From positions 744,001 through 808,000 of the forward strand of contig NZ_CP028960.1 of NCBI RefSeq assembly GCF_003071365.1: DNA of 64,000 nt, read 5' to 3'. Each line of letters starts with the position of its first letter. The first letter of the stretch is position 1. Made by a program: the position numbers and the translations under genes. Source of the stretch: Methyloceanibacter sp. wino2 (lineage in GTDB: Bacteria; Pseudomonadota; Alphaproteobacteria; Rhizobiales; Methyloligellaceae). This document shows positions 7,312-24,099 of the stretch, in pieces. The notes under the pieces were generated by a model. That model did not search any database and was not told the origin of the DNA. It saw only the letters and a program-made list of their open reading frames with translations.

Positions 7312-9069
7312 TCAGCAGGCTTCGGCGGCCATGGCACGAGGAACCGGTTCATCCGGGCGGCCGGAGACGGCCATCCAGGCGTCGTATTGGGACAGGAACA
7401 CGCGCCCGTTCAGATGCTGCAGGAGATGGGAGGCTTCGAGCCGGTCCATCACCGGGCCTTTCACTTCCGACAGATGGAAGCCGACACCCATGTCGGTCAG
7501 GCGCTCATTGATGGCCTCGAGGCTCTCCAGCGCCGAGTAATCGACGGCGTTCACCGCCGAGAACATCAGAACGACATTGCGGATGCCGCAACCCTCGGTC
7601 ACGCGCGCCAGGATCAGGTTCTCCAGGAAGCGGGCGTTGGCGAAGTACAGGCTCTCGTCGACACGGAGCATCAGGAGCCCCGGATCGGTCTCGACCGTGT
7701 GGCGGTTGATGTTGCGGAAGTGATGCGTGCCCGGCACGAGGCCGATCTCGGCCACGTGGGGTCGCGATGTCTTGTAGAGATGCATGAGCACCGAGATGGC
7801 AACGCCGGCGGCGACGCCGATCTCCACACCGAGCAACAGCGTCAGCAGGATGGTGGCGGCAACGGCGGAGAAGTCGGACTTCGAGTAGCCCCAGGTCTTC
7901 TTGAGGATCGACAGATCGATGAGGCTCAGCACGGCCACGATGATGGTTGCGGCGAGGGTCGCCTTCGGCAGGAAGTAGATCAGCGGCGTCAGCGCGACGG
8001 CGGCGATTGCCAAGCCGACGGCCGTGTAGGCGCCGGCCGCCGGCGTCTCGGCGCCGGCGTCGAAATTGACGACCGAACGCGAGAAACCGCCCGTCACCGG
8101 ATAACCGCCCGTGAAGGCCGCCCCGAGATTGGCGGCGCCCAAGCCGATCAGTTCCTGATCGGGGTCGATGTGCTGGCGCTTCTTGGCGGCGAATGTCTGG
8201 GCCACCGAGATGGACTCTACGAAGCCGATGATCGAGACGAGGATCGCCGGCACCGCAAGATCGGCGAGCAGGTCGGGAGAGAGCCCCGGCATGGTCAGCG
8301 GCGGCAGGCTCTGGGGCACTTCGCCGACGATCGATAGGCCGCGTCCGTTAAGGCTGAAGTACCAGGCCACCAGCGTCGTCACCACGACGGCCGCGATGGG
8401 TCCTGCCTTGGTGATGAGATCGGCGAGCTTCGGACCGAGACCGATTGATCGCAGGAACGGCTTCAGCCCCTTGCGCACCCAGAACAGGAACCCGATAGCC
8501 CCTGCCCCGATGGCGAGCGTAATGACATTGGTCTCGCCGAAATGCGTCACGAGCGAACCGATCATCTCGGGCAGCGTATGGCCGCCCGCGTCGACACCCA
8601 GGATGTGCTTCAGCTGACTGCAGGCGATCAGGATGCCCGAAGCGGTGATGAACCCGGCAATCACGGGATGGCTGAGGAAGTTCGCGAGGAACCCGAGCCG
8701 CAGCACGCCGAGCATTAGGAGAAAGCCACCCGACAGCAGCGCCAGCGTCAACGCCGCGACCACATAGCCGGCCGTGCCTTGTTCGGCCACCTGGCCGACG
8801 GCCGATGCGGTCAGCAGGGACACCACGGCCACGGGGCCGACGGCCAGGGCGCGGGACGTACCGAAGATCGCATAGAGGATGATCGGCACGATGGAGGCGT
8901 AGATACCGGCTTCCGGCGGCAGCCCCGCCAGCAGCGCGTACGCGAGCGACTGCGGGATCAGCATGATCGTCACGATCACCGCCGCGACCAGGTCGTTCGA
9001 GAACGTGGTGGCGTTGTACGTACGCCCCCAATCGAGGACGGGAATGAATTTGCGCAGCCGAGCGATCAT
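7312..9069 (-). CDS. SulP-family anion transporter, copy A
   Basis: A 585-aa SulP/SLC26-type permease with about 10-12 membrane segments (about 20-430), the AYALLAGLPPEAGIYAS signature near residue 45, and a C-terminal STAS domain (about 445-560, with SAVNAVDYSALESLEAIN). Members carry sulfate, bicarbonate or related anions. Placed last in a sulfide-oxidation operon, it may export sulfite or sulfate, or import an anion; direction is inference. It follows the SQR gene by 10 bases. It is nearly identical to the protein at 19405-21162 apart from a few positions and the last 15 or so residues. Confidence 0.9.
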   Translation of the reverse strand: MIARLRKFIPVLDWGRTYNATTFSNDLVAAVIVTIMLIPQSLAYALLAGLPPEAGIYASIVPIILYAIFGTSRALAVGPVAVVSLLTASAVGQVAEQGTAGYVVAALTLALLSGGFLLMLGVLRLGFLANFLSHPVIAGFITASGILIACSQLKHILGVDAGGHTLPEMIGSLVTHFGETNVITLAIGAGAIGFLFWVRKGLKPFLRSIGLGPKLADLITKAGPIAAVVVTTLVAWYFSLNGRGLSIVGEVPQSLPPLTMPGLSPDLLADLAVPAILVSIIGFVESISVAQTFAAKKRQHIDPDQELIGLGAANLGAAFTGGYPVTGGFSRSVVNFDAGAETPAAGAYTAVGLAIAAVALTPLIYFLPKATLAATIIVAVLSLIDLSILKKTWGYSKSDFSAVAATILLTLLLGVEIGVAAGVAISVLMHLYKTSRPHVAEIGLVPGTHHFRNINRHTVETDPGLLMLRVDESLYFANARFLENLILARVTEGCGIRNVVLMFSAVNAVDYSALESLEAINERLTDMGVGFHLSEVKGPVMDRLEASHLLQHLNGRVFLSQYDAWMAVSGRPDEPVPRAMAAEAC

Positions 9070-9079
9070 TTGTGGAGGA

Positions 9080-10759
9080 TCACTTCGCAGCTACCGAGAG
9101 GCGCTCGGGCTTGGCCATCCACTCCTTGCCCTTGAGCATGGCCCACCAGTAGATCGGCGGCAGCATCTTCTCCTTCAAAATCCAGGCGGCGCGGGAGGGT
9201 TTCGTCCCGTCGATGAAGAATTTCGGGAAGCTCGGCTTCAGCGCACCGCCATAGCCGAACTCGGCCAGCACGATCTTGCCGCGCTCGACTGTGAGCGGGC
9301 ACGAGCCGTAGCCGTCATATTGTGCCACCGCGGACCGGCCGGCGATATCGGCGACGATGTTCTCGGCGACTGTCGGGGCTTGTTTGCGGGCCGCGGCGGC
9401 CGTCTTCGCGTTGGGTGCGTTCATGACGTCGCCCAGGCTCCAGATGTTGTCGTAGGCCTTGTGGCGCAGCGTGGTCTGGTCCACATCGACCCAGCCGGCG
9501 GCATCGGCCAGCGGCGACACACGGATAAAGTCCGGCGCCGTCTGCGGGGGACAGACATGGATCATGTCGAAGTCCATGGTGACCGTGGTGGGGTCCGTGT
9601 CCGGCTTCGACACTTTGAAAGTTGCCGTCTTGGCCGAGCCGTCGATAGCAATGAGGTTGTGGAAGAAGTTCAGGTGCGCGCCGTACTTCTCGACGTATTT
9701 CATGAGCGCCGGCACGTAGTCCTTCACGCCGAACAGCACACCGCCGGCGTTGTTGAACTGGATGTCGATGTCCTTGAGGACGCCACGGCGGTACCAAGCG
9801 TCGGCCGACAGATACATGGCCTTTTGCGGTGCGCCGGCACATTTGATCGGCATGGGGGGCTGCGTGAAGATCGCCCGGCCCTTGTTCATGCGCTGGACCA
9901 GCTCCCACGTATACGGCGCAAGGTCGTAGCGATAGTTCGAGGTGACGCCATTGCGGCCGAGCGTCTCCTCGAGACCTTCGACGGCGCCCCAATCGAGCTT
10001 GAGACCGGGACAGACGACGAGGCGGTCGTATTTGACCACCCGGCAGCCATCCAGAATGACCGCGTCGTTCTCCGGCTCGAACGCGGCAACCGCGGCCTTT
10101 ATCCAGTGGACGCCGCTGGGAATGAGCGAGCCCATGGTCTTGGCCGTGTCCTGTGCTTGGAACACACCGCCGCCGACCATGGTCCAGCCCGGCTGGTAAT
10201 AATGGATCTCGGCGGGATCGATGATCGCGATATCGAGATCGGGACTACGCGCGTGCAGACTGGAAGCAACGGCAATGCCGCCGGCCCCGCCGCCAACGAT
10301 GACGATGTCGAACTTGGCATCGCCGGTGTCGGTCGGCGTCTTGCCGCCATTGGCGATGCGCCGCGCGACGCCGTTCATGTCGTAGCCTGCCGCCTTGGCC
10401 GCCGCCAAGATGTCCGACATGGGAAGCGCCTTGGACTGGCTCAGCGACCACAGCGTCACCGAGCGCGTACCCGTCCGGCAGTAGGCGAAGACGGGCCCCG
10501 GGAGCTCGCGCAGCGCGGTGCCGAACGCGACGGCATCCTCGTCCTGCACGAGCCCGGACTTGACGGGCAGATAACGGGCCTCGAGTCCGACCGCGTCGGC
10601 CGCCTCGTGGATCTCCTCGAAGGTCGGCTGATCCGCGCCCTCGCCGTCGGGGCGGTTGCAGACGATCGAGCGGAAGCCTTGCGCCTTGAGCTCGGCGATG
10701 TCGGCCGGTGAAATCTGGCTGCTGACCGACAGCGCGTCCGAGATGCGTTTCAGTTCCAT
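9080..10759 (-). CDS. sqr: DUF442 sulfurtransferase-like / type II sulfide:quinone oxidoreductase fusion, copy A
   Basis: A 559-aa fusion. Residues 1-110 are a DUF442 (TIGR01244, Blh-type) dual-specificity-phosphatase fold with a cysteine P-loop CRTGTRS (Cys94). Residues 150-559 are an FAD-dependent oxidoreductase with the dinucleotide motif DIVIVGGGAGG. The two cysteines characteristic of type II SQR (as in human SQOR) are present: IKCAGAPQKAMYL (Cys307) and YDGYGSCPL (Cys487). Expected role: membrane-associated oxidation of sulfide, electrons to quinone, sulfane sulfur to an acceptor, perhaps handled by the fused domain. It lies 19 bases after the hydrolase gene. Residues 228-477 are identical to copy B. 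Confidence 0.9.
   Translation of the reverse strand: MELKRISDALSVSSQISPADIAELKAQGFRSIVCNRPDGEGADQPTFEEIHEAADAVGLEARYLPVKSGLVQDEDAVAFGTALRELPGPVFAYCRTGTRSVTLWSLSQSKALPMSDILAAAKAAGYDMNGVARRIANGGKTPTDTGDAKFDIVIVGGGAGGIAVASSLHARSPDLDIAIIDPAEIHYYQPGWTMVGGGVFQAQDTAKTMGSLIPSGVHWIKAAVAAFEPENDAVILDGCRVVKYDRLVVCPGLKLDWGAVEGLEETLGRNGVTSNYRYDLAPYTWELVQRMNKGRAIFTQPPMPIKCAGAPQKAMYLSADAWYRRGVLKDIDIQFNNAGGVLFGVKDYVPALMKYVEKYGAHLNFFHNLIAIDGSAKTATFKVSKPDTDPTTVTMDFDMIHVCPPQTAPDFIRVSPLADAAGWVDVDQTTLRHKAYDNIWSLGDVMNAPNAKTAAAARKQAPTVAENIVADIAGRSAVAQYDGYGSCPLTVERGKIVLAEFGYGGALKPSFPKFFIDGTKPSRAAWILKEKMLPPIYWWAMLKGKEWMAKPERLSVAAK
9327..10078. repeat. 750-bp tract apparently identical to 21532-22283
   Basis: Reading base by base with a constant offset of 12205, I find no mismatch between this tract and 21532-22283. 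The sequence immediately on both sides differs at scattered positions, mostly third codon positions. The tract covers SQR residues 228-477. A sharply bounded identical block within otherwise diverged duplicates is the signature of recent gene conversion. Confidence 0.85.
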
Positions 10760-10778
10760 CAGCGCGTCTCCGCTTAGC

Positions 10779-11663
10779 TTAGAGGCCGTTGACCGGGACC
10801 TTCAGCATCGGCCGGCCGTCTTTGTCCTTCGGCACCTCGCCGCCGCGTATGTTCACCTGCAGCGAGGGGATGATCAGTCGCGGCATGCCGAGCGTCGCGT
10901 CGCGCTCGGTGCGGAACTTGATGAAGTCTTCCTTCGTCTTTCCGTTACCGACATGGATGTTGTTCTTCTTCTCCTCGGCGACCGTGGTCTCCCAGGCGTA
11001 CTCGCGTCCGCCCGGCGCATAGTCGTGGCACATGAAGAGGCGCATCTCGTCCGGCAGGCTCAGCACCTTCATGATCGAGTCGTAGAGGGTGCCGGCATCG
11101 CCGCCGGGGAAGTCGGCGCGCGCGGAACCGCCATCGGGCATGAACAACGTGTCGCCCACGAAGGCGGCATCGCCGATCACATGGACCATGCAGGCCGGCG
11201 TATGACCGGGCGTGTACATGGCGAACGCCTGCATGTTGCCGATGGTGTAGGTGTCGCCGTCCTCGAACAGGGCGTCGAACTGGCTGCCGTCGCGCTGGAA
11301 TTCCGTGCCTTCATTGAAGAATTTGCCGAAGGTCTCCTGCACGACCAGGATCTTCGAGCCGATGCCGAGCTTGCCGCCGAGCTCCTGCTGGATGTACGGC
11401 GCGGCCGACAGATGGTCGGCATGGGCATGGGTCTCGATGATCCATTCGAGCTTGAGACCGCGCTCCTTGATGCGGGCGATGATCTCGTCGGCACTGTCAT
11501 GGGTGATGCGGCCCGCCGCATAGTCGAGGTCCATCACGCTGTCCACGACGGCACAGGAGTTGGAGGTCGGGTCCTTGACGATGTAGCTGATGGTGTTGGT
11601 CGGCTCGTCGAAGAAGGATTCGACTTCCGGGTGGACGGTCATGTCGATCGGATAGTTCGTCAC
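10779..11663 (-). CDS. persulfide dioxygenase-like MBL-fold hydrolase, copy A
   Basis: A 294-aa metallo-beta-lactamase-fold protein with the metal-binding HAHADH motif, a second histidine in TPGHTPAC, the bridging aspartate in AFVGDTLF and a late histidine in FMCHDYAPGG. It resembles the ETHE1/Blh persulfide dioxygenases that oxidise glutathione persulfide to sulfite. The start is the GTG at 11661-11663, with AAAGGAC upstream; copy B has ATG at the same codon. It precedes the SQR fusion by 19 bases, consistent with consuming the persulfide that SQR makes. A dioxygenase role is inferred from family and context. Confidence 0.88.
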   Translation of the reverse strand: MTNYPIDMTVHPEVESFFDEPTNTISYIVKDPTSNSCAVVDSVMDLDYAAGRITHDSADEIIARIKERGLKLEWIIETHAHADHLSAAPYIQQELGGKLGIGSKILVVQETFGKFFNEGTEFQRDGSQFDALFEDGDTYTIGNMQAFAMYTPGHTPACMVHVIGDAAFVGDTLFMPDGGSARADFPGGDAGTLYDSIMKVLSLPDEMRLFMCHDYAPGGREYAWETTVAEEKKNNIHVGNGKTKEDFIKFRTERDATLGMPRLIIPSLQVNIRGGEVPKDKDGRPMLKVPVNGL

Positions 11664-11705
11664 GAGAATAGTCCTTTCCAAATTGGGTACCTGAACCTGG
11701 CCGGC

Positions 11706-12079: not shown

Positions 12080-12745
12080 TCAAGCGGAGGCGGCCAGCCG
12101 CTCCAGGGCCGGGGTGTCGCTCAACGACACATGGCCTCGTGAGAGGCGGATCCAGCCGCGCTTCTGGAACTCGCTGAGCTGGCGGGAAACCACCTCACGG
12201 GCCGTGCCGAGCTCGGTCGCAAGCTGCTGGTGCGTCACCTCGAGCTCGCCGGAGCCTCCCGCAAGCCCGATAAGCCGGTCCGCCAGGCGCACGTCGATCT
12301 TGCCAAAGGCGACCTCGTCGATGACACGAAACAGGTCCGTGATACGACGCGCATAGGCCGCAAAAACGAAAGCGCGGAACTGCGGGGAGCTGGCGGCCAG
12401 CTCGTCGAACACCGCTCGTGGGATCGCCACGGCGGTCACGGCGGTCTCCGCCACGCCCTCGGCCGAATAGGCCTCATGGGCGAGCAGGCAGGCGGTGGTC
12501 AGGACACAGCTTTGCCCCGCCTCGACCCGGTAGAGCACGATTTCGCGCCCGCTTTCGGAGGTCTGTGAGACCTTCACTGTTCCTTCGATCAGGAGAAGCA
12601 AATTGTCGGGCTCGAGCCCCGGGCCGAAGATCTTGGTCCCGCCCGGAACCGACACCACCTGACTGCGGCTCACCAGGGCGTCCTTGATCCGCTCCGGGAG
12701 ACGGCTCAATCCCTCGAAACGCTCGATCCAGTTGGCGTCTTTCAT
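12080..12745 (-). CDS. Crp/Fnr-family regulator of the sulfur cassette
   Basis: A 221-aa regulator with an N-terminal cyclic-nucleotide-binding-type beta barrel (about 20-125) and a C-terminal winged helix with LEVTHQQLATELGTAREVVSRQL (about 165-195). It lacks the N-terminal cysteine cluster of FNR, so it should not carry an Fe-S cluster of that kind. Two cysteines sit close together in ESCVLTTACLL-type sequence (here QSCVLTTACLL, near residues 80-87), at the usual ligand region of the barrel. As first gene of the DUF2892-hydrolase-SQR-SulP set it is the likely local regulator, and the cysteine pair could sense persulfide (inference). Confidence 0.85.
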   Translation of the reverse strand: MKDANWIERFEGLSRLPERIKDALVSRSQVVSVPGGTKIFGPGLEPDNLLLLIEGTVKVSQTSESGREIVLYRVEAGQSCVLTTACLLAHEAYSAEGVAETAVTAVAIPRAVFDELAASSPQFRAFVFAAYARRITDLFRVIDEVAFGKIDVRLADRLIGLAGGSGELEVTHQQLATELGTAREVVSRQLSEFQKRGWIRLSRGHVSLSDTPALERLAASA

Positions 12746-12853: not shown

Positions 12854-13897
12854 CTACGGCTTGAGCCGCTCGATGATGGCCTGCAGCGCCTCGATGGCCT
12901 CGGCCCGCTCGCGCTTCTTCAGGTCTAGCAGCACCTTGAAGCCGTCCTGCTCCTCCCGGATAACGGATCCTTCGCGCTCCAGATCCTCGTAAAGCCCGAG
13001 CACCTTGTAGCAGCGGACCGGTTCGGCGAATCCCTTGACCTTGATTGGCTCGCGCTCCTCCACGTCCACCTCGTCTTTGACGAGTGAGTAGGTCTCGTGA
13101 CCGATCAGAATGCTGTCGGTGTCTGCATGGAACTCGAGGCGCGCGGTGGCATTCACGCAGCTGCCGATGATGGTGTAGTCCATGCGCTCGTCACCGCCGA
13201 AATTGCCCACGGTGACGTAGCCGGTATTGATGCCCATGCGCAGGTGAAACGGCTCCGTGGCGCCGAGCTCCAGCCATTCCGTATGGAGCTCACTCAAGCG
13301 CCTGAGCATCGCCAGGGCCATGCGGACACAGGCGACCGCATCCTCCTTCACGCCCTTGGACTGGGGGTCGCCGAAGAACACCATGATGGCGTCGCCGATA
13401 TATTTGTCGATGGTCGCACCGTATTCGAGCGCGATATTGGTCATCTCCGTGAGGTAGCGATTGAGTAGGTTGGTGAGGTCCTCGGACTCCAACCTGTCGG
13501 TCGTCTCGGTGAAGTTCATGATGTCGGAAAAGAAGATCGTCAGCTTCTTGCGGCTAGAGGCGATTTCGACGTTCTGCGCGCCGGTGAAGATCGAGTGGTA
13601 GATCTGGGGCGACAAATATTTCGACAGCTTGGTCGCCAGCGCATCCAGCTCCTTGTTGTGCTTGGCAATGACCGTGTTGGCCTCTTTCTGCTCCTTGCTC
13701 AGCGCGTTGAGCTGTTCCTCATTGCGGTCGCTGAGGCGCATCAGCCGGCGCGTCGTGCGCAACAGCTTCTGATAGTCCTTGAGCAGGCCTTCGTAGAGCG
13801 TGCGGTCGCCAATGTCGGCGAAGCGGCCGTCGTCGAGGAGCTTCTGTGCCTCGACGATGACCTTCCCTTCGGCGGCAAAGAGATCGTCCGACGGCAT
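12854..13897 (-). CDS. class III adenylate/guanylate cyclase
   Basis: A 347-aa soluble protein. An N-terminal helical, coiled-coil-prone region (about 20-105) precedes a class III cyclase catalytic domain: LTIFFSDIMNFTETTD (first metal Asp), TIDKYIGDAIMVFFGDP (second metal Asp and a substrate-type Lys), and IIGSCVNATARLE (transition-state Asn/Arg). It should make cAMP or cGMP; the Lys favours ATP. Its ATG shares one base with the SiaC stop (TGATG), so it is translationally coupled to the SiaA/B/C-like genes. It takes the place held by the GGDEF enzyme SiaD in the Pseudomonas operon. Confidence 0.9.
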   Translation of the reverse strand: MPSDDLFAAEGKVIVEAQKLLDDGRFADIGDRTLYEGLLKDYQKLLRTTRRLMRLSDRNEEQLNALSKEQKEANTVIAKHNKELDALATKLSKYLSPQIYHSIFTGAQNVEIASSRKKLTIFFSDIMNFTETTDRLESEDLTNLLNRYLTEMTNIALEYGATIDKYIGDAIMVFFGDPQSKGVKEDAVACVRMALAMLRRLSELHTEWLELGATEPFHLRMGINTGYVTVGNFGGDERMDYTIIGSCVNATARLEFHADTDSILIGHETYSLVKDEVDVEEREPIKVKGFAEPVRCYKVLGLYEDLEREGSVIREEQDGFKVLLDLKKRERAEAIEALQAIIERLKP

Positions 13898-14286
13898 CAG
13901 CCCGCCATCTTTTCGAGATGGAACGCGGCGCTCTCGAGCTCCTCGCCGAATTCCTCGCCCAGCTCTTGCATCGTGTCGTCGTCGTTGTCGTAGAACCAGT
14001 AGACGTCCACGTCGGCGCCGTTCTTAGCGGCGTCCTCGAGCTTGTCCATCAGCATCATCACGGCCTTGGCGCTCGAGCTGTTCAAATAGATGAGTTCGAA
14101 GTCGAAACGGCAACGCCCCTCACCCAGCGAACCGAGATACTCGTCGAGCGCGTTGAAGACCGGCCGGTAAAACTCGGTCACGTCCTCTGGGTAGGATTCG
14201 CCCGACAGCTTCAGGTGATTGTTCGGATAGTCGAAGACCACGGCCGGCGTGCGGGAGGTCTGCTCAATGTTCAACGGATCGCGCAT
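13897..14286 (-). CDS. siaC: SiaC-family (DUF1987) regulatory phosphoprotein
   Basis: A 129-aa protein of the DUF1987 family. The motif LIYLNSSSAKAVMMLMDKLE contains the serine/threonine cluster phosphorylated by SiaB-type kinases, and the tail is acidic (YDNDDDTMQELGEEFGEE). In Pseudomonas aeruginosa, SiaC in its unphosphorylated form activates the diguanylate cyclase SiaD. The start is the ATG at 14284-14286 with GAGG 9 bases upstream; an upstream TTG is less likely. It sits directly before the class III cyclase, its probable partner here. Confidence 0.88.
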   Translation of the reverse strand: MRDPLNIEQTSRTPAVVFDYPNNHLKLSGESYPEDVTEFYRPVFNALDEYLGSLGEGRCRFDFELIYLNSSSAKAVMMLMDKLEDAAKNGADVDVYWFYDNDDDTMQELGEEFGEELESAAFHLEKMAG

Positions 14287-14297
14287 CAATTCGGACC

Positions 14298-14867
14298 TCA
14301 AATCGTCGCTCTCAAGGCAAAGAAGACGTGGTCGCCATCGACATCGGCGAAGTCGTACTCGATCGGCTTCGAGGCGCGACGCGCGATTTCCGTGAGGCCG
14401 AGCCCGGCCCCCTTGCTGCCTTGTTCGGGGTCGGCTCTAAGCTGTTCTTTGTAGAGAATCTTCAAGTCGTCCTTGCTCATGTTCCTCACTTTTTCAAGCC
14501 GCTCCGCAAGCCGCTCGACGTCCCCTTTGCGCACGAGATTACCGGCGCAGACCACGTAGTCATTGCCCTCGCGCCCGATGGTGAGGATGCCGTACCGCAT
14601 CTCCATGAGCGCGCCCTGTTCGTCCGCGGGTGGCATTTCCTGACGCGCCTTTTCGGCGGAATAGCGGATAATGTTTTGCATCTGCTCGACGAAGACGGCG
14701 AACACGCTGCGCAGGGTCTTGGTGTCGGCGTCATCGATGGTCAGCTTCTGCTTGAGCGCCTCCCCCACCCCGGACAGCACCGGCTCCGTCACATAGCCGC
14801 TATAGGCGAAGATCACGCCTTGGCGATGCAGCATCGACCGCAAGTCCATCAACTGGCCGGCTAGCAT
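14298..14867 (-). CDS. siaB: SiaB-family protein kinase (DUF6272)
   Basis: A 189-aa protein resembling SiaB, a histidine-kinase-like ATPase fold that phosphorylates SiaC. Features seen are the GVIFAYSGYVTEPVLSGVGE start, a FVEQMQNIIRYSAE helix matching the N-box region of GHKL ATPases, and GSKGAGLGLTEIARRA matching the glycine-rich ATP lid. AGGAGG stands 5 bases before the ATG. It follows the phosphatase gene by 9 bases and precedes siaC by 11. Confidence 0.88.
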   Translation of the reverse strand: MLAGQLMDLRSMLHRQGVIFAYSGYVTEPVLSGVGEALKQKLTIDDADTKTLRSVFAVFVEQMQNIIRYSAEKARQEMPPADEQGALMEMRYGILTIGREGNDYVVCAGNLVRKGDVERLAERLEKVRNMSKDDLKILYKEQLRADPEQGSKGAGLGLTEIARRASKPIEYDFADVDGDHVFFALRATI

Positions 14868-14876
14868 TGAGGCCTC

Positions 14877-17327
14877 CTAGGCACGGGGGATGAAACCCAA
14901 AACCGTCAGATCATCGCGCCGCCTCTGATCGCCCTGAAACTTCTCGAAGGCGTCGCGCAGTGTCTCTTCCTGCTCATTCATTGGCGCATCGCGGAGCTTA
15001 TGCAAGAGGTCCTTAAAACGTTGCTTGCCGAAGGCGCGACCGCGCGGCCCCCCGATCTGTTCGATGAGCCCATCGGTCGTAAGGTAGAACGCGTCGCCTG
15101 AATCGTAGCCAAACGTGGTGTTCTTGAATCTCGTCTCCGGACGATAACGCCGGTAGCCGAGGCCCTCGCGGTCGCCTTTGATCTCGATAACGCCTTCGCT
15201 ATTCGACCGCCACAGCGAGAAGCGCGCACCGGCAAATGTTATCTGCCGTTTGCTCAGGTCGATGAAACAGACTCCGGCTTCCAGTCCGTCGTCGGTTTCG
15301 CCGTGCTGTTCGTCCTGGCCAAGCAAGCTTTGCACGCCCTGATGCAGACCGGAGAGCACTGCGCTTGGGCCGCCGGGCGCATCGCGCAGTATGCGGTCGA
15401 GCAGACCCCAGGCGATCAGGGTCATGAAGGCGCCAGGGACGCCGTGGCCCGTGCAATCGCCGACCATGATCGCATGGCCGTCTTCAACGGGCTGAAACCA
15501 GAAGAAGTCACCGCCGACAATGTCCCGCGGCTCCCAAATTAGGAAGTGGTCCGCCGCAATGGCTTCGATCTCGCGCCGCGCGGGAAGCACCGCGGACTGG
15601 ATGCGGCTGGCATAGTGCAGGCTTTGTAGGATCAGCTGGTTCGCCGCCGCCGCCCGCCGCTCGCTCTCCTTGATCTCGGTGAGATCGCTGTAGACGGCGA
15701 CCGTGCCGCCGGTTTCTGTGCGGCGCTCGCTGATCTGCAGCCAACGACCGTCCGACCGGCGCTGAAGAATGGGCTCGCCGGGATATCTGTGCTCGTCGAG
15801 GCGCTGGCGAAGCCAGCCTTCTTCGCGCCCCTTGGCATCCTCGATCAGACCGTGGGCGACGGCCTTCCGCAGGATCGTCTCGAAGGAGTTCCCTGGCCCA
15901 GGCGGCCCGTCGCCGGCGTCGAACAGCTCGCCATATTTCTGATTGCCGAGAACCAGACGGTCCTCTGAGTCGTAAAGAGAGAATCCTTCCGAGATCGTCT
16001 CGATGGCGTCGGTCAGCCGTTGCTCGCGTTCGTGAAGCGCGGCTTGCTCGGCCGTCTTGCGCTCGGTCACTTCGGACCAGGTGCCGATCACCTCGAGCGG
16101 ATCACCGTTCCGGTCCTTGACGAGGGTCTGCTCGTCGCTGACCCAGCAATAGGTGCCGTCCGCCTTGCGGAAGCGATATTCCGAGACGCGGCGCCCCAGT
16201 TCGAACAGTTCCGATTGACCGGCTTCGACCGCCGCGAGGTCCTCGGGATGCACGTGGGAGCGCCAGAAGTCGGCCTGCTTCAGGTAGTCGTCGGGCTCGT
16301 ATCCCAGGACGCGCTTGATGTTGCCGCTGACAAACGTAGGCGTGAAGCTTCCTGTCGCGCTGAAGCTGTAGACTACGGCCGGAGCGCTGTGGAGCATCAG
16401 GTCGAAACGGGCGCGCGCTGCGTTCTCGGCCTCTTCGGCCGTCTTGCGTGCGGAGATGTTGCTCCAGGAGCCGACGATCTCGACGGGCTCGCCATGCTCG
16501 TCGCGCAGGAGATACTGCTCGTCGCTGACCCAGATATACTTGCCGTTGCGCTTGCGGAACCGGTACTCGGTGGCGTGGCGCCCCTTGTCGAAAATCAACG
16601 CCTCTTCGGCTTCGACGCCTGCGAGGTCGTCCGGATGCACGTGGGAGCGCCAAAAGTCCGCATGCTCCATGTATTTCTCCGGGCAGTAGCCCAAGAGCCG
16701 CTTGATGTTCTCGCTGACGAAGGTGGGCGCGTAATCGCCGCGCGCCTTGAAGCTGTAGATCACGGCCGGTGCCGCTTCGAGAAGTGTCGACAGCCGGGCT
16801 TGGGTGGCGTCTTCCCGCGCCTCGGCGCTCTTGCGCGCGCTGATGTCGCTCCAGGAGCCGACCACTTCGCTCGGCGCTCCTTGTGCGTCGTAGATCATGT
16901 GCTGTTCGTCGTTCACCCAGCGATAGGTGCCGTCCTTGTGACGGAAGCGGTATTCGACGGTCAGGTCACCCGTCTCGAAGAGAGTCTCCAGATCGGCATC
17001 GAGGCGCTCGAGGTCGTCGGGATGAACACGCTCGCGCCAGAAGCCGGGATTGCCGAGATAGTCTCCCGGCGCGTAGCCGAACAGGCCTTCGATATTGTCG
17101 CTGACGAAGGTGGGCGCGAAGTCGTCGCGCGCCTTGAAGGAGTAAAGCACCGCGGGCGAGGCGGAGAGCAGGCGCGCCGTTCGCGCCGAAGCATCCGCGC
17201 TCGCGCCGTCTCCTGATTCACGCAAAGCCTTCTCGATCGCCGCGGTCACCTCAGCGGGGTCCGTGCCAGGAATCAGCAAGGATTCCAGCGCGGCGGCAGC
17301 GCGAGCGGCACTCTTTTTCGGCGTCAT
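14877..17327 (-). CDS. multi-PAS SpoIIE-type phosphatase, SiaA-like
   Basis: An 816-aa cytoplasmic protein. Three closely related PAS-PAC units of about 125 aa lie at roughly 50-175, 180-305 and 310-430, each with APTFVSxNI, HPDDL and W(V)xDEQ motifs. A fourth, more distant PAS lies at about 445-560. The C-terminal PP2C/SpoIIE domain has DIVGGDFFWF and GDCTGHGVPGAFMT, the metal-binding aspartates of the family. Pseudomonas SiaA is a membrane HAMP-containing PP2C that dephosphorylates SiaC; here soluble PAS sensors replace the membrane input. It is the first gene of the four-gene minus-strand set. Confidence 0.88.
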   Translation of the reverse strand: MTPKKSAARAAAALESLLIPGTDPAEVTAAIEKALRESGDGASADASARTARLLSASPAVLYSFKARDDFAPTFVSDNIEGLFGYAPGDYLGNPGFWRERVHPDDLERLDADLETLFETGDLTVEYRFRHKDGTYRWVNDEQHMIYDAQGAPSEVVGSWSDISARKSAEAREDATQARLSTLLEAAPAVIYSFKARGDYAPTFVSENIKRLLGYCPEKYMEHADFWRSHVHPDDLAGVEAEEALIFDKGRHATEYRFRKRNGKYIWVSDEQYLLRDEHGEPVEIVGSWSNISARKTAEEAENAARARFDLMLHSAPAVVYSFSATGSFTPTFVSGNIKRVLGYEPDDYLKQADFWRSHVHPEDLAAVEAGQSELFELGRRVSEYRFRKADGTYCWVSDEQTLVKDRNGDPLEVIGTWSEVTERKTAEQAALHEREQRLTDAIETISEGFSLYDSEDRLVLGNQKYGELFDAGDGPPGPGNSFETILRKAVAHGLIEDAKGREEGWLRQRLDEHRYPGEPILQRRSDGRWLQISERRTETGGTVAVYSDLTEIKESERRAAAANQLILQSLHYASRIQSAVLPARREIEAIAADHFLIWEPRDIVGGDFFWFQPVEDGHAIMVGDCTGHGVPGAFMTLIAWGLLDRILRDAPGGPSAVLSGLHQGVQSLLGQDEQHGETDDGLEAGVCFIDLSKRQITFAGARFSLWRSNSEGVIEIKGDREGLGYRRYRPETRFKNTTFGYDSGDAFYLTTDGLIEQIGGPRGRAFGKQRFKDLLHKLRDAPMNEQEETLRDAFEKFQGDQRRRDDLTVLGFIPRA

Positions 17328-17404: not shown

Positions 17405-17644
17405 TTAGGCTATCCGATACTTTGCCTTGAACCGGCAGATCTCATCCCACACGTCCGGCGCTACGGACTGCGCGGTCACGCGGGCGAATATGCGGCTGAG
17501 AATGTCCCGCTCCTGGTCGTCCACGGTCCCATCCTCAAGCGCGAGTCTCTTGAGCATGGCCAGTTCCTGAGCGTCGATCGTGCCGTCGTTGGCGAACACG
17601 TACAGGAACGAGTACTGCATGATGGCGTTCGCATTCGAACTCAC
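17405..17644 (-). CDS. TerB-like small protein
   Basis: A 79-aa helical protein, SSNANAIMQYSFLYVFANDG followed by TIDAQELAMLKRLALEDGTV. The pattern of two acidic loops (NDGTIDAQE, DGTVDDQE) followed by helices resembles TerB/tellurite-resistance-type or EF-hand-like small domains. The start is the GTG at 17642-17644 with a strong AAGGAGGAG upstream; the longer frame to 17692 would put that ribosome binding site inside the gene. It lies upstream of the SiaA-like gene on the same strand, 77 bases away. Function unknown. Confidence 0.7.
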   Translation of the reverse strand: MSSNANAIMQYSFLYVFANDGTIDAQELAMLKRLALEDGTVDDQERDILSRIFARVTAQSVAPDVWDEICRFKAKYRIA

Positions 17645-18003
17645 CGCGTCTCCTCCTTGTTTATTGGCCGGGCCGTCTTTAGAGGCTAGCAAGCAGCAAA
17701 ACTGAAGCTAGCACAGTGGCTTGGCAGATATTCAAGTCTATCCGAGTCGCCGAGACATAGAAATGCGCCGGTGCGGCCGGGAACGCGGCGATCCATTTGC
17801 GAAGACGCTCTGGCCACCAGGCATGGCATGGAGACTCGCCTCTTCCCGCGCAGATTCCCGTCAGTTGCATAAATACGCAATTCAAGGAGCCTGTTTCTGC
17901 GTCTTCTCTGGGCGGCAGGCTGCCTCCCTGTGACAAGATAAGTGGCTTCTTTGCCTCGTAAATTAGCTTCGTCTGATATACCGCGGGCGCCACCCGCTCA
18001 GTA
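17645..18003. other. intergenic stretch, no supported gene
   Basis: Divergent region between the TerB-like gene and the OsmC gene. A minus-strand frame of 104 codons is present but lacks a ribosome binding site and any recognisable pattern. The AT-rich element at 18004-18039 follows it. Confidence 0.4.
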
Positions 18004-19404: not shown

Positions 19405-21162
19405 TCAGAATGTTTGGGCGGCCAAGACGGGTTTGGGCCTTTCGGATGGCCATCCCAAGACGGCCATCCACGCGTCGTATTGGGACAGGAACACGCGGCC
19501 GTTCAGATGCTGCAGGAGATGGGAGGCTTCGAGCCGGTCCATCACCGGGCCTTTCACTTCCGACAGATGGAAGCCGACGCCCATGTCGGTCAGGCGCTCG
19601 TTGATGGCCTCGAGGCTCTCGAGGGCCGAGTAATCAACCGCGTTCACCGCCGAGAACATCAGAACGACATTGCGGATGCCGCAGCCCTCGGTCACGCGCG
19701 CGAGGATCAGGTTCTCGAGGAAGCGGGCGTTGGCGAAGTACAGGCTCTCGTCGACCCGGAGCATCAGGAGACCCGGATCGGTCTCGACCGTGTGCCGGTT
19801 GATGTTGCGGAAGTGATGGGTGCCCGGCACGAGGCCGATCTCGGCGACGTGCGGACGCGATGTCTTGTACAGATGCATCAGCACCGAGATGGCAACGCCG
19901 GTGGCGACGCCGATCTCGACGCCGAGCAACAGCGTCAGCAGGATGGTGGCGGCGACGGCGGAGAAGTCGGACTTCGAGTAGCCCCAGGTCTTCTTGAGGA
20001 TCGACAGATCGATGAGACTCAGCACAGCGACGATGATGGTCGCGGCCAGCGTCGCCTTCGGCAGGAAGTAGATGAGCGGTGTCAGGGCCACGGCGGCGAT
20101 GGCCAAGCCCACAGCCGTATAGGCGCCGGCCGCGGGTGTCTCGGCGCCGGCGTCGAAATTGACGACCGAGCGCGAGAAGCCGCCGGTCACCGGATAGCCG
20201 CCCGTGAAGGCCGCGCCGAGATTGGCCGCGCCCAAACCGATCAGTTCCTGATCGGGATCGATGTGCTGGCGCTTCTTGGCGGCGAATGTCTGAGCCACCG
20301 AGATGGACTCCACGAAGCCGATGATCGAAACGAGGATCGCTGGCACCGCAAGATCGGCGAGCAGGTCGGGAGAGAGCCCCGGCATGGTCAGCGGCGGCAG
20401 GCTCTGGGGCACTTCGCCGACGATCGATAGGCCGCGCCCGTTCAGGCTGAAGTACCAGGCCACCAGCGTCGTCACCACGACAGCCGCGATGGGTCCCGCC
20501 TTGGTGATGAGATCGGCAAGCTTCGGACCGAGACCGATCTTCCGCAAGAACGGCTTGAGACCGGTGCGCACCCAGAACAGGAACCCGATAGCCCCTGCCC
20601 CGATGGCGAGCGTAATGACGTTGGTCTCGCCGAGATGAGCCACGAGGGAACCGATCATCTCGGGCAGCGTATGACCGCCCGCGTCGACACCGAGGATGTG
20701 CTTCAGCTGACTGCAGGCGATCAGGATGCCCGAGGCCGTGATGAACCCGGCAATCACCGGATGGCTGAGGAAGTTCGCAAGGAACCCGAGCCGCAGCACG
20801 CCGAGCATCAGCAGGAAGCCGCCCGACAGCAGTGCCAGCGTCAACGCCGCAACCACGTAACCGGCCGTCCCTTGTTCGGCCACCTGGCCGACGGCCGATG
20901 CCGTCAGCAGCGACACCACGGCGACCGGACCGACGGCCAGGGCACGAGACGTGCCGAAGATCGCATAGAGAATGATCGGGACGATGGAGGCGTAGATACC
21001 GGCCTCCGGCGGCAGCCCCGCAAGCAGCGCATAGGCGAGCGACTGCGGGATCAGCATGATCGTCACGATCACCGCCGCGACCAGGTCGTTCGAGAACGCG
21101 GCCCCGTCGTAGGTGCGGCCCCATTCGAGGACGGGAATGAACTTGCGCAGCCGAGCGATCAT
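19405..21162 (-). CDS. SulP-family anion transporter, copy B
   Basis: A 585-aa SulP permease with a STAS domain. It differs from copy A mainly at DWGRTYNATT/EWGRTYDGAA near the N-terminus, RKGLKPFLRSI/RTGLKPFLRKI, VAAGVA/VATGVA, TH/AH, and a replaced C-terminal tail (AVLGWPSERPKPVLAAQTF). All membrane segments and the STAS core are kept, so it should be functional. Here 119 bases separate it from the SQR gene, against 10 in cassette A, so it may have its own expression. Confidence 0.9.
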   Translation of the reverse strand: MIARLRKFIPVLEWGRTYDGAAFSNDLVAAVIVTIMLIPQSLAYALLAGLPPEAGIYASIVPIILYAIFGTSRALAVGPVAVVSLLTASAVGQVAEQGTAGYVVAALTLALLSGGFLLMLGVLRLGFLANFLSHPVIAGFITASGILIACSQLKHILGVDAGGHTLPEMIGSLVAHLGETNVITLAIGAGAIGFLFWVRTGLKPFLRKIGLGPKLADLITKAGPIAAVVVTTLVAWYFSLNGRGLSIVGEVPQSLPPLTMPGLSPDLLADLAVPAILVSIIGFVESISVAQTFAAKKRQHIDPDQELIGLGAANLGAAFTGGYPVTGGFSRSVVNFDAGAETPAAGAYTAVGLAIAAVALTPLIYFLPKATLAATIIVAVLSLIDLSILKKTWGYSKSDFSAVAATILLTLLLGVEIGVATGVAISVLMHLYKTSRPHVAEIGLVPGTHHFRNINRHTVETDPGLLMLRVDESLYFANARFLENLILARVTEGCGIRNVVLMFSAVNAVDYSALESLEAINERLTDMGVGFHLSEVKGPVMDRLEASHLLQHLNGRVFLSQYDAWMAVLGWPSERPKPVLAAQTF

Positions 21163-21281
21163 CTTCGCCTCGAAACAACAGGTTTGCGCGCCGAACGCGC
21201 TTCCCGCTTATCCGCGAGAAGGCGCCGGCAGGGTTGGAACAGCGATCCGGGAGTCGCTCGGAGCGATCACTCGTGGAAGGA

Positions 21282-22964
21282 CTACTCGGCCGGTGCCACC
21301 GTGAGCCGCTCCGGCTTGGCCAACCACTCCTTGCCCTTGAGCATGGCCCACCAATAGATCGGCGGCAGCATCTTCTCTTTGAGGATCCAAGCGGCCCGTG
21401 AAGGCTTCATGCCGTCGATGAAGAACTTCGGGAAGCTCGGCTTCAGCGCGCCGCCATAGCCGAACTCGGCGAGCACGATCTTGCCGCGCTCGACCGTGAG
21501 CGGGCACGAGCCGTAGCCGTCATATTGCGCAACCGCGGACCGGCCGGCGATATCGGCGACGATGTTCTCGGCGACTGTCGGGGCTTGTTTGCGGGCCGCG
21601 GCGGCCGTCTTCGCGTTGGGTGCGTTCATGACGTCGCCCAGGCTCCAGATGTTGTCGTAGGCCTTGTGGCGCAGCGTGGTCTGGTCCACATCGACCCAGC
21701 CGGCGGCATCGGCCAGCGGCGACACACGGATAAAGTCCGGCGCCGTCTGCGGGGGACAGACATGGATCATGTCGAAGTCCATGGTGACCGTGGTGGGGTC
21801 CGTGTCCGGCTTCGACACTTTGAAAGTTGCCGTCTTGGCCGAGCCGTCGATAGCAATGAGGTTGTGGAAGAAGTTCAGGTGCGCGCCGTACTTCTCGACG
21901 TATTTCATGAGCGCCGGCACGTAGTCCTTCACGCCGAACAGCACACCGCCGGCGTTGTTGAACTGGATGTCGATGTCCTTGAGGACGCCACGGCGGTACC
22001 AAGCGTCGGCCGACAGATACATGGCCTTTTGCGGTGCGCCGGCACATTTGATCGGCATGGGGGGCTGCGTGAAGATCGCCCGGCCCTTGTTCATGCGCTG
22101 GACCAGCTCCCACGTATACGGCGCAAGGTCGTAGCGATAGTTCGAGGTGACGCCATTGCGGCCGAGCGTCTCCTCGAGACCTTCGACGGCGCCCCAATCG
22201 AGCTTGAGACCGGGACAGACGACGAGGCGGTCGTATTTGACCACCCGGCAGCCATCCAGAATGACCGCGTCGTTCTCCGGCTCAAAGGCAGCCACACCGG
22301 CCTTGATCCAATGGACGCCACTCGGAATGAGCGAGCCCATGGTCTTGGCCGTATCCTGTGCTTGGAACACACCGCCGCCCACCATGGTCCAGCCCGGCTG
22401 GTAGTAATGGATCTCCGCCGGATCGATGATCGCGATATCAAGACTAGGCTTGCGTGCACGCAAGCTGGAGGCGACGGCGATGCCGCCCGCCCCACCGCCG
22501 ACAATGACGATGTCGTATTTGGCGTCGCCGGTATCGGTCGGCGTCTTGCCGCCATTGGCGATGCGCCGGGCAACACCGTTCATGTCGTAGCCGGCCGCCT
22601 TGGCCGTCGCCAGGATGTCCGCCATGGGTAGCGCCTTGGACTGGCTCAGCGACCACAGCGTCATCGAGCGCGTCCCCGTCCGGCAATAGGCGAAGACAGG
22701 CCCCGGAAGTTCGCGCAACGCAGCGCCGAACGCGAACGCGTCCTCGTCCTGAATGAGTCCGGGTTTCACCGGTAGATAACGTGTCTCGAGTCCGACCGCG
22801 TCGGCCGCCTCGTGGATCTCCTCGAAGGTCGGCTGATCCGCGCCCTCGCCGTCGGGCCGGTTGCAGACGATCGAGCGGAAGCCTTGCGCCTTCAGCTCGG
22901 TGATGTCGGCCGGTGAAATCTGGCTGCTGACCGACAGCGCCTCGGATACGCGTTTCAACTCCAT
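21282..22964 (-). CDS. sqr: DUF442 / type II sulfide:quinone oxidoreductase fusion, copy B
   Basis: A 560-aa fusion with the same order as copy A: DUF442 domain with CRTGTRS, FAD motif DIVIVGGGAGG, and the type II SQR cysteines in IKCAGAPQKAMYL and YDGYGSCPL. The N-terminal domain and the extreme C-terminus (ERLTVAPAE) are diverged from A, while the middle 250 residues are identical. It should be active, unlike the hydrolase beside it. It begins 14 bases after the remnant stop of that hydrolase. Confidence 0.9.
   Translation of the reverse strand: MELKRVSEALSVSSQISPADITELKAQGFRSIVCNRPDGEGADQPTFEEIHEAADAVGLETRYLPVKPGLIQDEDAFAFGAALRELPGPVFAYCRTGTRSMTLWSLSQSKALPMADILATAKAAGYDMNGVARRIANGGKTPTDTGDAKYDIVIVGGGAGGIAVASSLRARKPSLDIAIIDPAEIHYYQPGWTMVGGGVFQAQDTAKTMGSLIPSGVHWIKAGVAAFEPENDAVILDGCRVVKYDRLVVCPGLKLDWGAVEGLEETLGRNGVTSNYRYDLAPYTWELVQRMNKGRAIFTQPPMPIKCAGAPQKAMYLSADAWYRRGVLKDIDIQFNNAGGVLFGVKDYVPALMKYVEKYGAHLNFFHNLIAIDGSAKTATFKVSKPDTDPTTVTMDFDMIHVCPPQTAPDFIRVSPLADAAGWVDVDQTTLRHKAYDNIWSLGDVMNAPNAKTAAAARKQAPTVAENIVADIAGRSAVAQYDGYGSCPLTVERGKIVLAEFGYGGALKPSFPKFFIDGMKPSRAAWILKEKMLPPIYWWAMLKGKEWLAKPERLTVAPAE
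21532..22283. repeat. 750-bp tract apparently identical to 9327-10078
   Basis: Partner of the identical block in SQR copy A, with a constant offset of 12205 and no indel. Mismatches begin right at both edges (TGCGCA against TGTGCC on the left; CTCAAAGGC against CTCGAACGC on the right). Confidence 0.85.
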
Positions 22965-22978
22965 GACTCTCTCCCCGC

Positions 22979-23861
22979 TTAAAGTTCGTTGACCGGGACT
23001 TTCAGCATCGGCCGTCCGTCCTCGTTTTTTGGCACCTCGCCGCCGCGCATGTTCACTTGCAGCGAGGGATGATCAGTTTCGGCATGCTCAGCGTCGCATC
23101 GCGCTCGGTGCGGAATTTGATGAAGTCTTCCTTCGTCTTCCCGTTGCCGACATGGATGTTGTTCGCGCGCTCGTCCGCAACGGTGGTTTCCCAGGCGTAT
23201 TCGCGTCCGCCCGGCGCATAGTCGTGGCACATGAAGAGGCGCATCTCGTCCGGCAGGCTCAGCACCTTCATGATCGAGTCGTACAGCGTGCCGGCATCGC
23301 CGCCGGGGAAGTCGGCGCGCGCGGAACCGCCATCGGCATGAACAACGTGTCGCCCACGAAGGCGGCATCGCCGATCACATGGACCATGCAGGCCGGCGTG
23401 TGACCGGGCGTGTACATGGCGAACGCCTGCATGTTGCCGATGGTGTAAGTGGCGCCGTCCTCGAACAGGGCGTCGAACTGGCTGCCGTCGCGCTGGAACT
23501 CGGTGCCTTCGTTGAAGACCTTCCCGAAGGTCTCCTGCACGACCATGATCTTCGAGCCGATACCGATCTTGCCGCCGAGTTCCTGTTGGATGTACGGGGC
23601 CGCCGACAGATGGTCGGCATGGGCGTGCGTCTCGATGATCCATTCGAGCTTGAGACCACGCTCCTTGATGCGGGCGATGATCTCGTCGGCGCTATCATGG
23701 GTGATGCGGCCAGCCGCGTAGTCGAGGTCCATCACGCTGTCCACGACGGCACAGGAGTTGGAGGTCGGGTCCTTGACGATGTAGCTGATGGTGTTGGTCG
23801 GCTCGTCGAAGAAGGATTCGACTTCCGGGTGGACGGTCATATCGATCGGATAGTTCGTCAT
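22979..23861 (-). pseudogene. persulfide dioxygenase-like hydrolase, copy B, two frameshifts
   Basis: Aligned to copy A this gene is 2 bases shorter. One G is missing from the run at about 23335-23336 (GG against GGG in A) and one at about 23065-23067 (GGG against GGGG). The first shift ends translation after 197 codons, just past DTLFMP. The product keeps HAHADH, TPGH and the GD motif but loses the CHDYAPGG histidine and the C-terminal 100 residues, so it is unlikely to be active. The original start, ATG at 23861 with AAAGGAC upstream, is intact. Both losses are in G runs, so sequencing error must be excluded. Confidence 0.8.
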
Positions 23862-24099
23862 GAGGGTAGTCCTTTAGAGGGGAGAAACTCGAGCGCCATC
23901 ACGATCCCGAACGCGGCGACCATGATCTCCCGGCACGTTTCCAAGATGGCCGGGACAGCGTTTGAACGGCGAGTTCCTCCAATCCAGTCTTGTTGTCGGC
24001 CTGCCAGGTTCGTGGGCTCCACGCCGCCAGGCACGAGAGGAAGATTGGCCCCGAAATTGCCCACAAGCATTCGCTTTCGAGCCTCGGCTTCGAGATCGG

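Follow-up and report, generated by a model that had tools for sequence, protein, structure and literature searches.

A SiaABC-type phospho-switch predicted to act on a class III adenylate cyclase in Methyloceanibacter

Within a 64,000-nucleotide stretch of the genome of Methyloceanibacter sp. wino2 (contig NZ_CP028960.1, positions 744,001 to 808,000; hereafter the window, in which all coordinates are counted), we analysed an operon resembling siaABCD of Pseudomonas aeruginosa (PA0172-PA0169). According to Pfam and NCBIfam, its genes are packed tightly on the minus strand, from 17327 down to 12854, and encode in this order a SiaA-like phosphatase, a SiaB-family kinase, a SiaC phosphoprotein and a class III cyclase (Table 1). 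The two systems have in common a PP2C phosphatase, a SiaB kinase, SiaC and an adjacent nucleotide cyclase with a SiaC-binding stalk, the binding being a prediction in the present case. The output enzyme in the window is a class III adenylate cyclase (PF00211), whereas in Pseudomonas it is the GGDEF diguanylate cyclase (DGC) SiaD. Nine bases separate the phosphatase and kinase genes, and the siaC stop codon shares one base with the ATG of the cyclase gene (TGATG). The kinase gene and siaC are about 11 bases apart if SiaC starts at the ATG at 14286, or overlap by 4 bases if it starts at the TTG at 14301; the ATG, with GAGG upstream of it, is the more likely start. A first-pass annotation, made from the DNA letters alone, had described this gene set as coupled, and the family searches and DNA junctions bear this out. 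Gene order is identical in same-genus genomes, the closest named relatives being Methyloceanibacter marginalis and M. superfactus.

The phosphatase contains four PAS domains followed by a C-terminal PP2C/SpoIIE domain (aa 575-812), in contrast to the membrane/HAMP input of P. aeruginosa SiaA. Its score against the SiaA equivalog NF038263 (240 bits) falls below the cut-off of 700, with the alignment limited to the PP2C part. The kinase passes the curated cut-off of the SiaB family kinase model NF038262 (195.5 bits against 85). SiaC, which is present as one copy in the whole 3.21 Mb genome, matches PF09345 with 135.7 bits (gathering cut-off 24.5) and the solved SiaC structures 6k4f, 6kko and 7e6g with E of about 1e-19 (phmmer). 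However, it scores 100.8 bits against the equivalog model for the biofilm regulation phosphoprotein SiaC (NF038265, cut-off 150), so that by sequence it is a member of the family and is not classed as an equivalent of the P. aeruginosa protein. The phosphosite loop and the docking face are conserved. A phosphorylatable residue is present in the Y-L-N-[ST]-S loop, where Ser70 (numbered from the ATG) replaces the Thr68 of P. aeruginosa SiaC (of 82 alignment rows, 74 have S at this position and 8 have T), and the contact residues Y31, Y65, N67, S69, M75, D79, L107 and E110 are identical.

The solved structure that best matches the cyclase is that of the class IIIb enzyme CyaB of P. aeruginosa (3r5g, 1.7e-68), with which it shares the catalytic and ATP-selecting residues D125, D169, K165, T242, N249 and R253. 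An AlphaFold2 model (pLDDT 83.7) consists of a single 64-residue helix, residues 29-92, leading into a CyaB-like domain; against 3r5g, Foldseek gave a TMt of 0.93, with 56% identity over 188 columns of the catalytic domain. Because the catalytic residues match CyaB, the class III rules suggest that the substrate is ATP and that the product is probably cyclic AMP (cAMP). Of the two outputs that had been proposed, cAMP or cyclic GMP, these residues thus point to the former and not to the latter.

In the crystal structure of the SiaC-SiaD complex, the SiaD stalk touches SiaC through R74, K77, V78, R80, I81, S82, D83, R84, Y85, Q86, M88, R90 and D91 (eLife 2021, PMC8457831; numbering fixed here from the 7e6g sequence). 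A corresponding RxSDR motif lies N-terminal to the catalytic domain of the window cyclase, inside the predicted helix. Residues 50-63 read RRLMRLSDRNEEQL, and R54-L55-S56-D57-R58 aligns with SiaD R80-I81-S82-D83-R84 (KVARISDRYQ in SiaD, RRLMRLSDRNE in the cyclase); S56 and D57 are invariant among 30 cyclases. A hidden Markov model (HMM) built from the stalks of SiaC-adjacent DGCs only retrieved the window cyclase with E=2.3e-7 among 5,933 open reading frames (ORFs), and no other ORF of the window scored below E=1. With a 45-residue stalk profile (A4), the cyclase was the sole match below E=0.2 in its own genome (E=1.1e-17; next 0.28), which encodes seven class III cyclases, only this one bearing a stalk. 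The proposal that SiaC is wired to a class III cyclase therefore holds at the level of the motif, the cyclase carrying a putative SiaC-binding stalk. As for a separate GGDEF partner of SiaC, named beforehand as the finding that would speak against this wiring, the genome contains no stalk-bearing GGDEF protein.

Table 1. Positions of the sia operon genes, of the features predicted within them and of the downstream neighbour
Feature	Position in window	Strand	Basis or remarks
SiaA-like sensor phosphatase	14877-17327	minus	Pfam: three PAS_3, one PAS_7, SpoIIE/PP2C (PF07228, 3.3e-22)
SiaB-family Ser/Thr kinase (DUF6272)	14298-14867	minus	Pfam 2.3e-45; NCBIfam SiaB_fam_kinase
SiaC phosphoprotein	13897-14286 (ATG start), ORF to TTG 14301	minus	PF09345 7.8e-40
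Predicted phosphorylated Ser of SiaC (LNSSS)	14077-14079	minus	alignment with P. aeruginosa SiaC (Thr68)
Class III adenylate cyclase, 347 aa, proposed switch output	12854-13897	minus	PF00211 7.5e-28
Putative SiaC-binding stalk of cyclase	13667-13795	minus	stalk profile A4, DGC-only HMM, within predicted helix
Stalk core motif R51-L-M-R-L-S-D-R-N-E-E-Q-L63	13709-13747	minus	aligned to SiaD K77-V-A-R80-I81-S82-D83-R84-Y85-Q86-Q-M88-M
Cyclase catalytic domain	13001-13555	minus	metal Asp125/Asp169, ATP-type Lys165/Thr242, transition-state Asn249 and Arg253; alignments
Crp/Fnr gene	12080-12745	same strand as cyclase	Pfam

We searched 398 evenly drawn Pseudomonadota genomes with profile A4 at a threshold of E<=1e-6. 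The stalk was found in 58 of them, all among the 67 that contain SiaC, and in none of the 331 SiaC-less genomes (Fisher p of about 1e-60, a value inflated by relatedness of the genomes). When the 14 genomes that had supplied profile rows were left out, 44/44 stalk genomes contained SiaC. In the phylum of Pseudodesulfovibrio, two of 247 genomes have the stalk, both among the five with SiaC. A search of the 398 genomes with the cyclase alignment gave matches beginning at the stalk only from SiaC-bearing genomes. Among 30 cyclase relatives examined, the motif is carried by all nine that adjoin SiaC and by four that do not, each of the latter in a genome with SiaC elsewhere; the remaining 17 are CyaB-type enzymes with membrane or PAS inputs, which lack the motif and do not adjoin SiaC. 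Stalk-bearing class III cyclases located far from siaC (L127, L130, L131 and L132, in genomes G163, G124, G175 and G144) occur together with SiaC loci that lack a stalk partner, and are candidate partners in trans.

A survey of the neighbourhoods of SiaC (DUF1987) genes, as had been suggested for this locus, covered 134 non-redundant loci. The nearest same-strand stalk protein was most often a class III cyclase (45 loci), followed by a GAF-HD-GYP or HD-GYP protein (29), a GGDEF protein (24), a histidine kinase (9) and other proteins (3); 26 loci have no adjacent stalk effector. Counted only over the evenly drawn Pseudomonadota (L044-L117), the corresponding numbers were 9 cyclase, 17 HD-GYP, 23 GGDEF and 3 histidine kinase loci. 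In the cyclase-type loci, SiaB adjoins SiaC in 43/44, a PP2C gene lies within 6 kb in 37/44 and the gap between siaC and the cyclase gene is at most 40 bases in 42/44, and from these counts the siaB-siaC-effector order is not due to chance. Many Alphaproteobacteria, and also bacteria outside this class, have the same arrangement, and the stalk is borne by two distinct class III subfamilies. In a SiaC tree, which is poorly resolved, the output types are clustered, with about 16 type changes, and the well-supported branches do not require more than one origin for any type; one supported clade, made up of 25 cyclase-type SiaCs of Alpha- and Gammaproteobacteria, includes the window protein. The first-pass view that a cyclase stands in for SiaD is supported as regards the partner gene of SiaC, but its framing as a single substitution was too narrow, since there are at least four output types.

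A few loci depart from these patterns. At L108 (2263-3957), a SiaC-adjacent class III cyclase with a stalk has a C-terminal PilZ domain, which suggests cross-talk between cyclic di-GMP (c-di-GMP) sensing and cyclase output. At L211 (5428-6435), a PP2C-type protein itself bears a putative SiaC-binding stalk. Loci L098 (3998-4372) and L086 (3968-4360) contain SiaB-SiaC pairs directly followed by a PP2C phosphatase, with no stalk effector nearby.

The distance between the stalk and the catalytic domain is also constrained. From the invariant stalk Ser to the Tyr of KYLSP, an element that precedes the catalytic domain, the spacing is 24, 31 or 38 residues in 41/41 CyaB-type cyclases, and it is 35 in the three adjacent loci of the other class III subfamily. 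In the DGCs, the stalk Ser lies 21, 28 or 49 residues from DxLTG (24/24). The steps between these lengths are whole heptads (7 residues), the pattern to be expected were the SiaC site to act on the enzyme by way of a coiled coil. We regard this phasing as supporting rather than decisive for mechanical coupling, as independent indel events are few.

Taken together, we consider it very likely that the operon encodes a SiaABC partner switch with a cAMP output, in which unphosphorylated SiaC would activate the cyclase, by analogy with SiaD. The soluble PAS-PP2C phosphatase would sense a signal, probably cytoplasmic. The SiaB-family kinase would phosphorylate the Ser of the SiaC LNSSS loop and the phosphatase would remove the phosphate. 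Unphosphorylated SiaC could then dock on the RLSDR motif of the N-terminal stalk helix and stabilise a parallel stalk dimer, so that the heptad-phased helix would unite two cyclase domains as an active, cAMP-making dimer; phosphorylation of SiaC would block docking. The same stalk may elsewhere plug SiaC into HD-GYP proteins, DGCs and histidine kinases. It is likely, if slightly less so, that the RxSDR stalk serves as a SiaC-receptor helix that can be carried from one protein to another. Through its recruitment in evolution, one SiaABC phospho-switch would have come to govern four chemically different outputs, namely the synthesis of cAMP, that of c-di-GMP, the probable breakdown of c-di-GMP (HD-GYP) and a histidine-kinase phosphorelay, and linkers of whole-heptad length would preserve the coupling.

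Several observations weigh against this interpretation. SiaD has two SiaC motifs and the window cyclase one, so that the stoichiometries may not be the same. At the position of SiaD Q86, the residue that bonds SiaC Thr68, the window cyclase has Glu, and E stands there in 39/44 cyclases, always paired with a SiaC Ser; SiaD Y85, M88, R90 and D91 are not conserved. In addition, SiaC proteins similar to that of the window are over-represented among the 134 loci, and the stalk profile started from SiaC-adjacent proteins, a choice that does not by itself impose the absence of the stalk from SiaC-less genomes. Co-variation of SiaC Ser/Thr with stalk Glu/Gln was considered separately as evidence; Thr occurs with Gln in 7/7 cases, but these represent a single Pseudomonas-type lineage and were not counted.

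A different sign of regulation is conceivable, in that SiaC might bind the stalk and lock an inactive state, with phosphorylation by SiaB turning cAMP synthesis on. The sequence tells where SiaC would dock and not with which sign it would act, cyclases and DGCs have different linkers, and the sole measured case is one DGC (PMC8457831). We nevertheless judge inhibition unlikely: the same contacts activate SiaD through dimer formation, class III cyclases likewise need dimerisation, and the linkers keep one heptad phase within each class. Much less probable still is that siaC and the cyclase gene are merely neighbours, SiaC acting on another target and the cyclase being regulated independently. 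The SiaC fold does resemble anti-sigma factor antagonists (PMC7647112), and the loci without an adjacent stalk effector would fit such a role, but the cyclase is the sole stalk protein of its genome, cyclases lacking SiaC have no stalk, and the one-base overlap of the two genes is accompanied by adjacency across many families. Chance resemblance of a generic coiled-coil dimerisation helix to SiaD is the least credible explanation. The stalk is helical and heptad-phased, like signalling helices generally, yet the polar residues S-D-R at its core vary little or not at all among the four enzyme classes, and the SiaC-less Pseudomonadota genomes searched do not contain it.

A SiaC-activated cyclase would join other second-messenger cyclases that are controlled by a STAS-like, phospho-switched partner, such as those of HsbA-HsbD and BgrV-BgrR; according to PMC8457831, these two systems have STAS-domain partners and DGC outputs. 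The authors of that study suggested that DUF1987 proteins modulate adjacent proteins, a suggestion to which a motif, classes of partner and a rule of coupling can now be added. We found no open-access paper linking SiaC to class III cyclases or HD-GYP partners, subscription papers and preprints being outside the search. If our interpretation is true, the Pseudomonas biofilm switch is a signalling cassette of general use whose outputs can be exchanged, and a target can be predicted for each SiaC gene that has a stalk-bearing partner. Ser/Thr partner switching would also be linked to cAMP in cultured Alphaproteobacteria (Ruegeria, Tritonibacter, Azospirillum, Stappia and Methyloceanibacter). With the stalk motif, partners in trans can also be predicted, and the heptad rule opens the mechanism of coupling to direct tests.

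The gene downstream of the cyclase encodes a Crp/Fnr protein with a cyclic-nucleotide-binding (cNMP) fold, which had been put forward as a possible reader. The gap of 108 bases and the shared strand were as first noted, and they would suit a dedicated cAMP reader, as would the fold. However, the G-E...R-S phosphate cassette of cAMP receptors was looked for in this protein and is absent, while another Crp-like protein of the same genome (L230, one of 14 cNMP-fold proteins) has it intact (FGEMAAIDGIPRSA). Furthermore, a Crp/Fnr gene is present at only 3/44 cyclase-type loci, all closest relatives, and at all three it is followed by genes for a persulfide dioxygenase (PDO), an SQR-like fusion and SulP. 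We therefore rejected the reader role, which appears highly improbable, and the gene is best read as part of a Crp-PDO-SQR-SulP sulfur block.

The sulfide-oxidation block (PDO, SQR-like fusion, SulP) is duplicated in the window (7365-11677 and 19458-23875, about 93.5% identical), with one copy on each side of the sia operon and on its strand; in the second PDO copy (about 22982-23879) there appears to be a frameshift. A 95-aa protein without a Pfam match, which we take to be TerB-like, is encoded at 17405-17692, upstream of the phosphatase gene by 77 bases and on its strand, and is kept in two same-genus loci.

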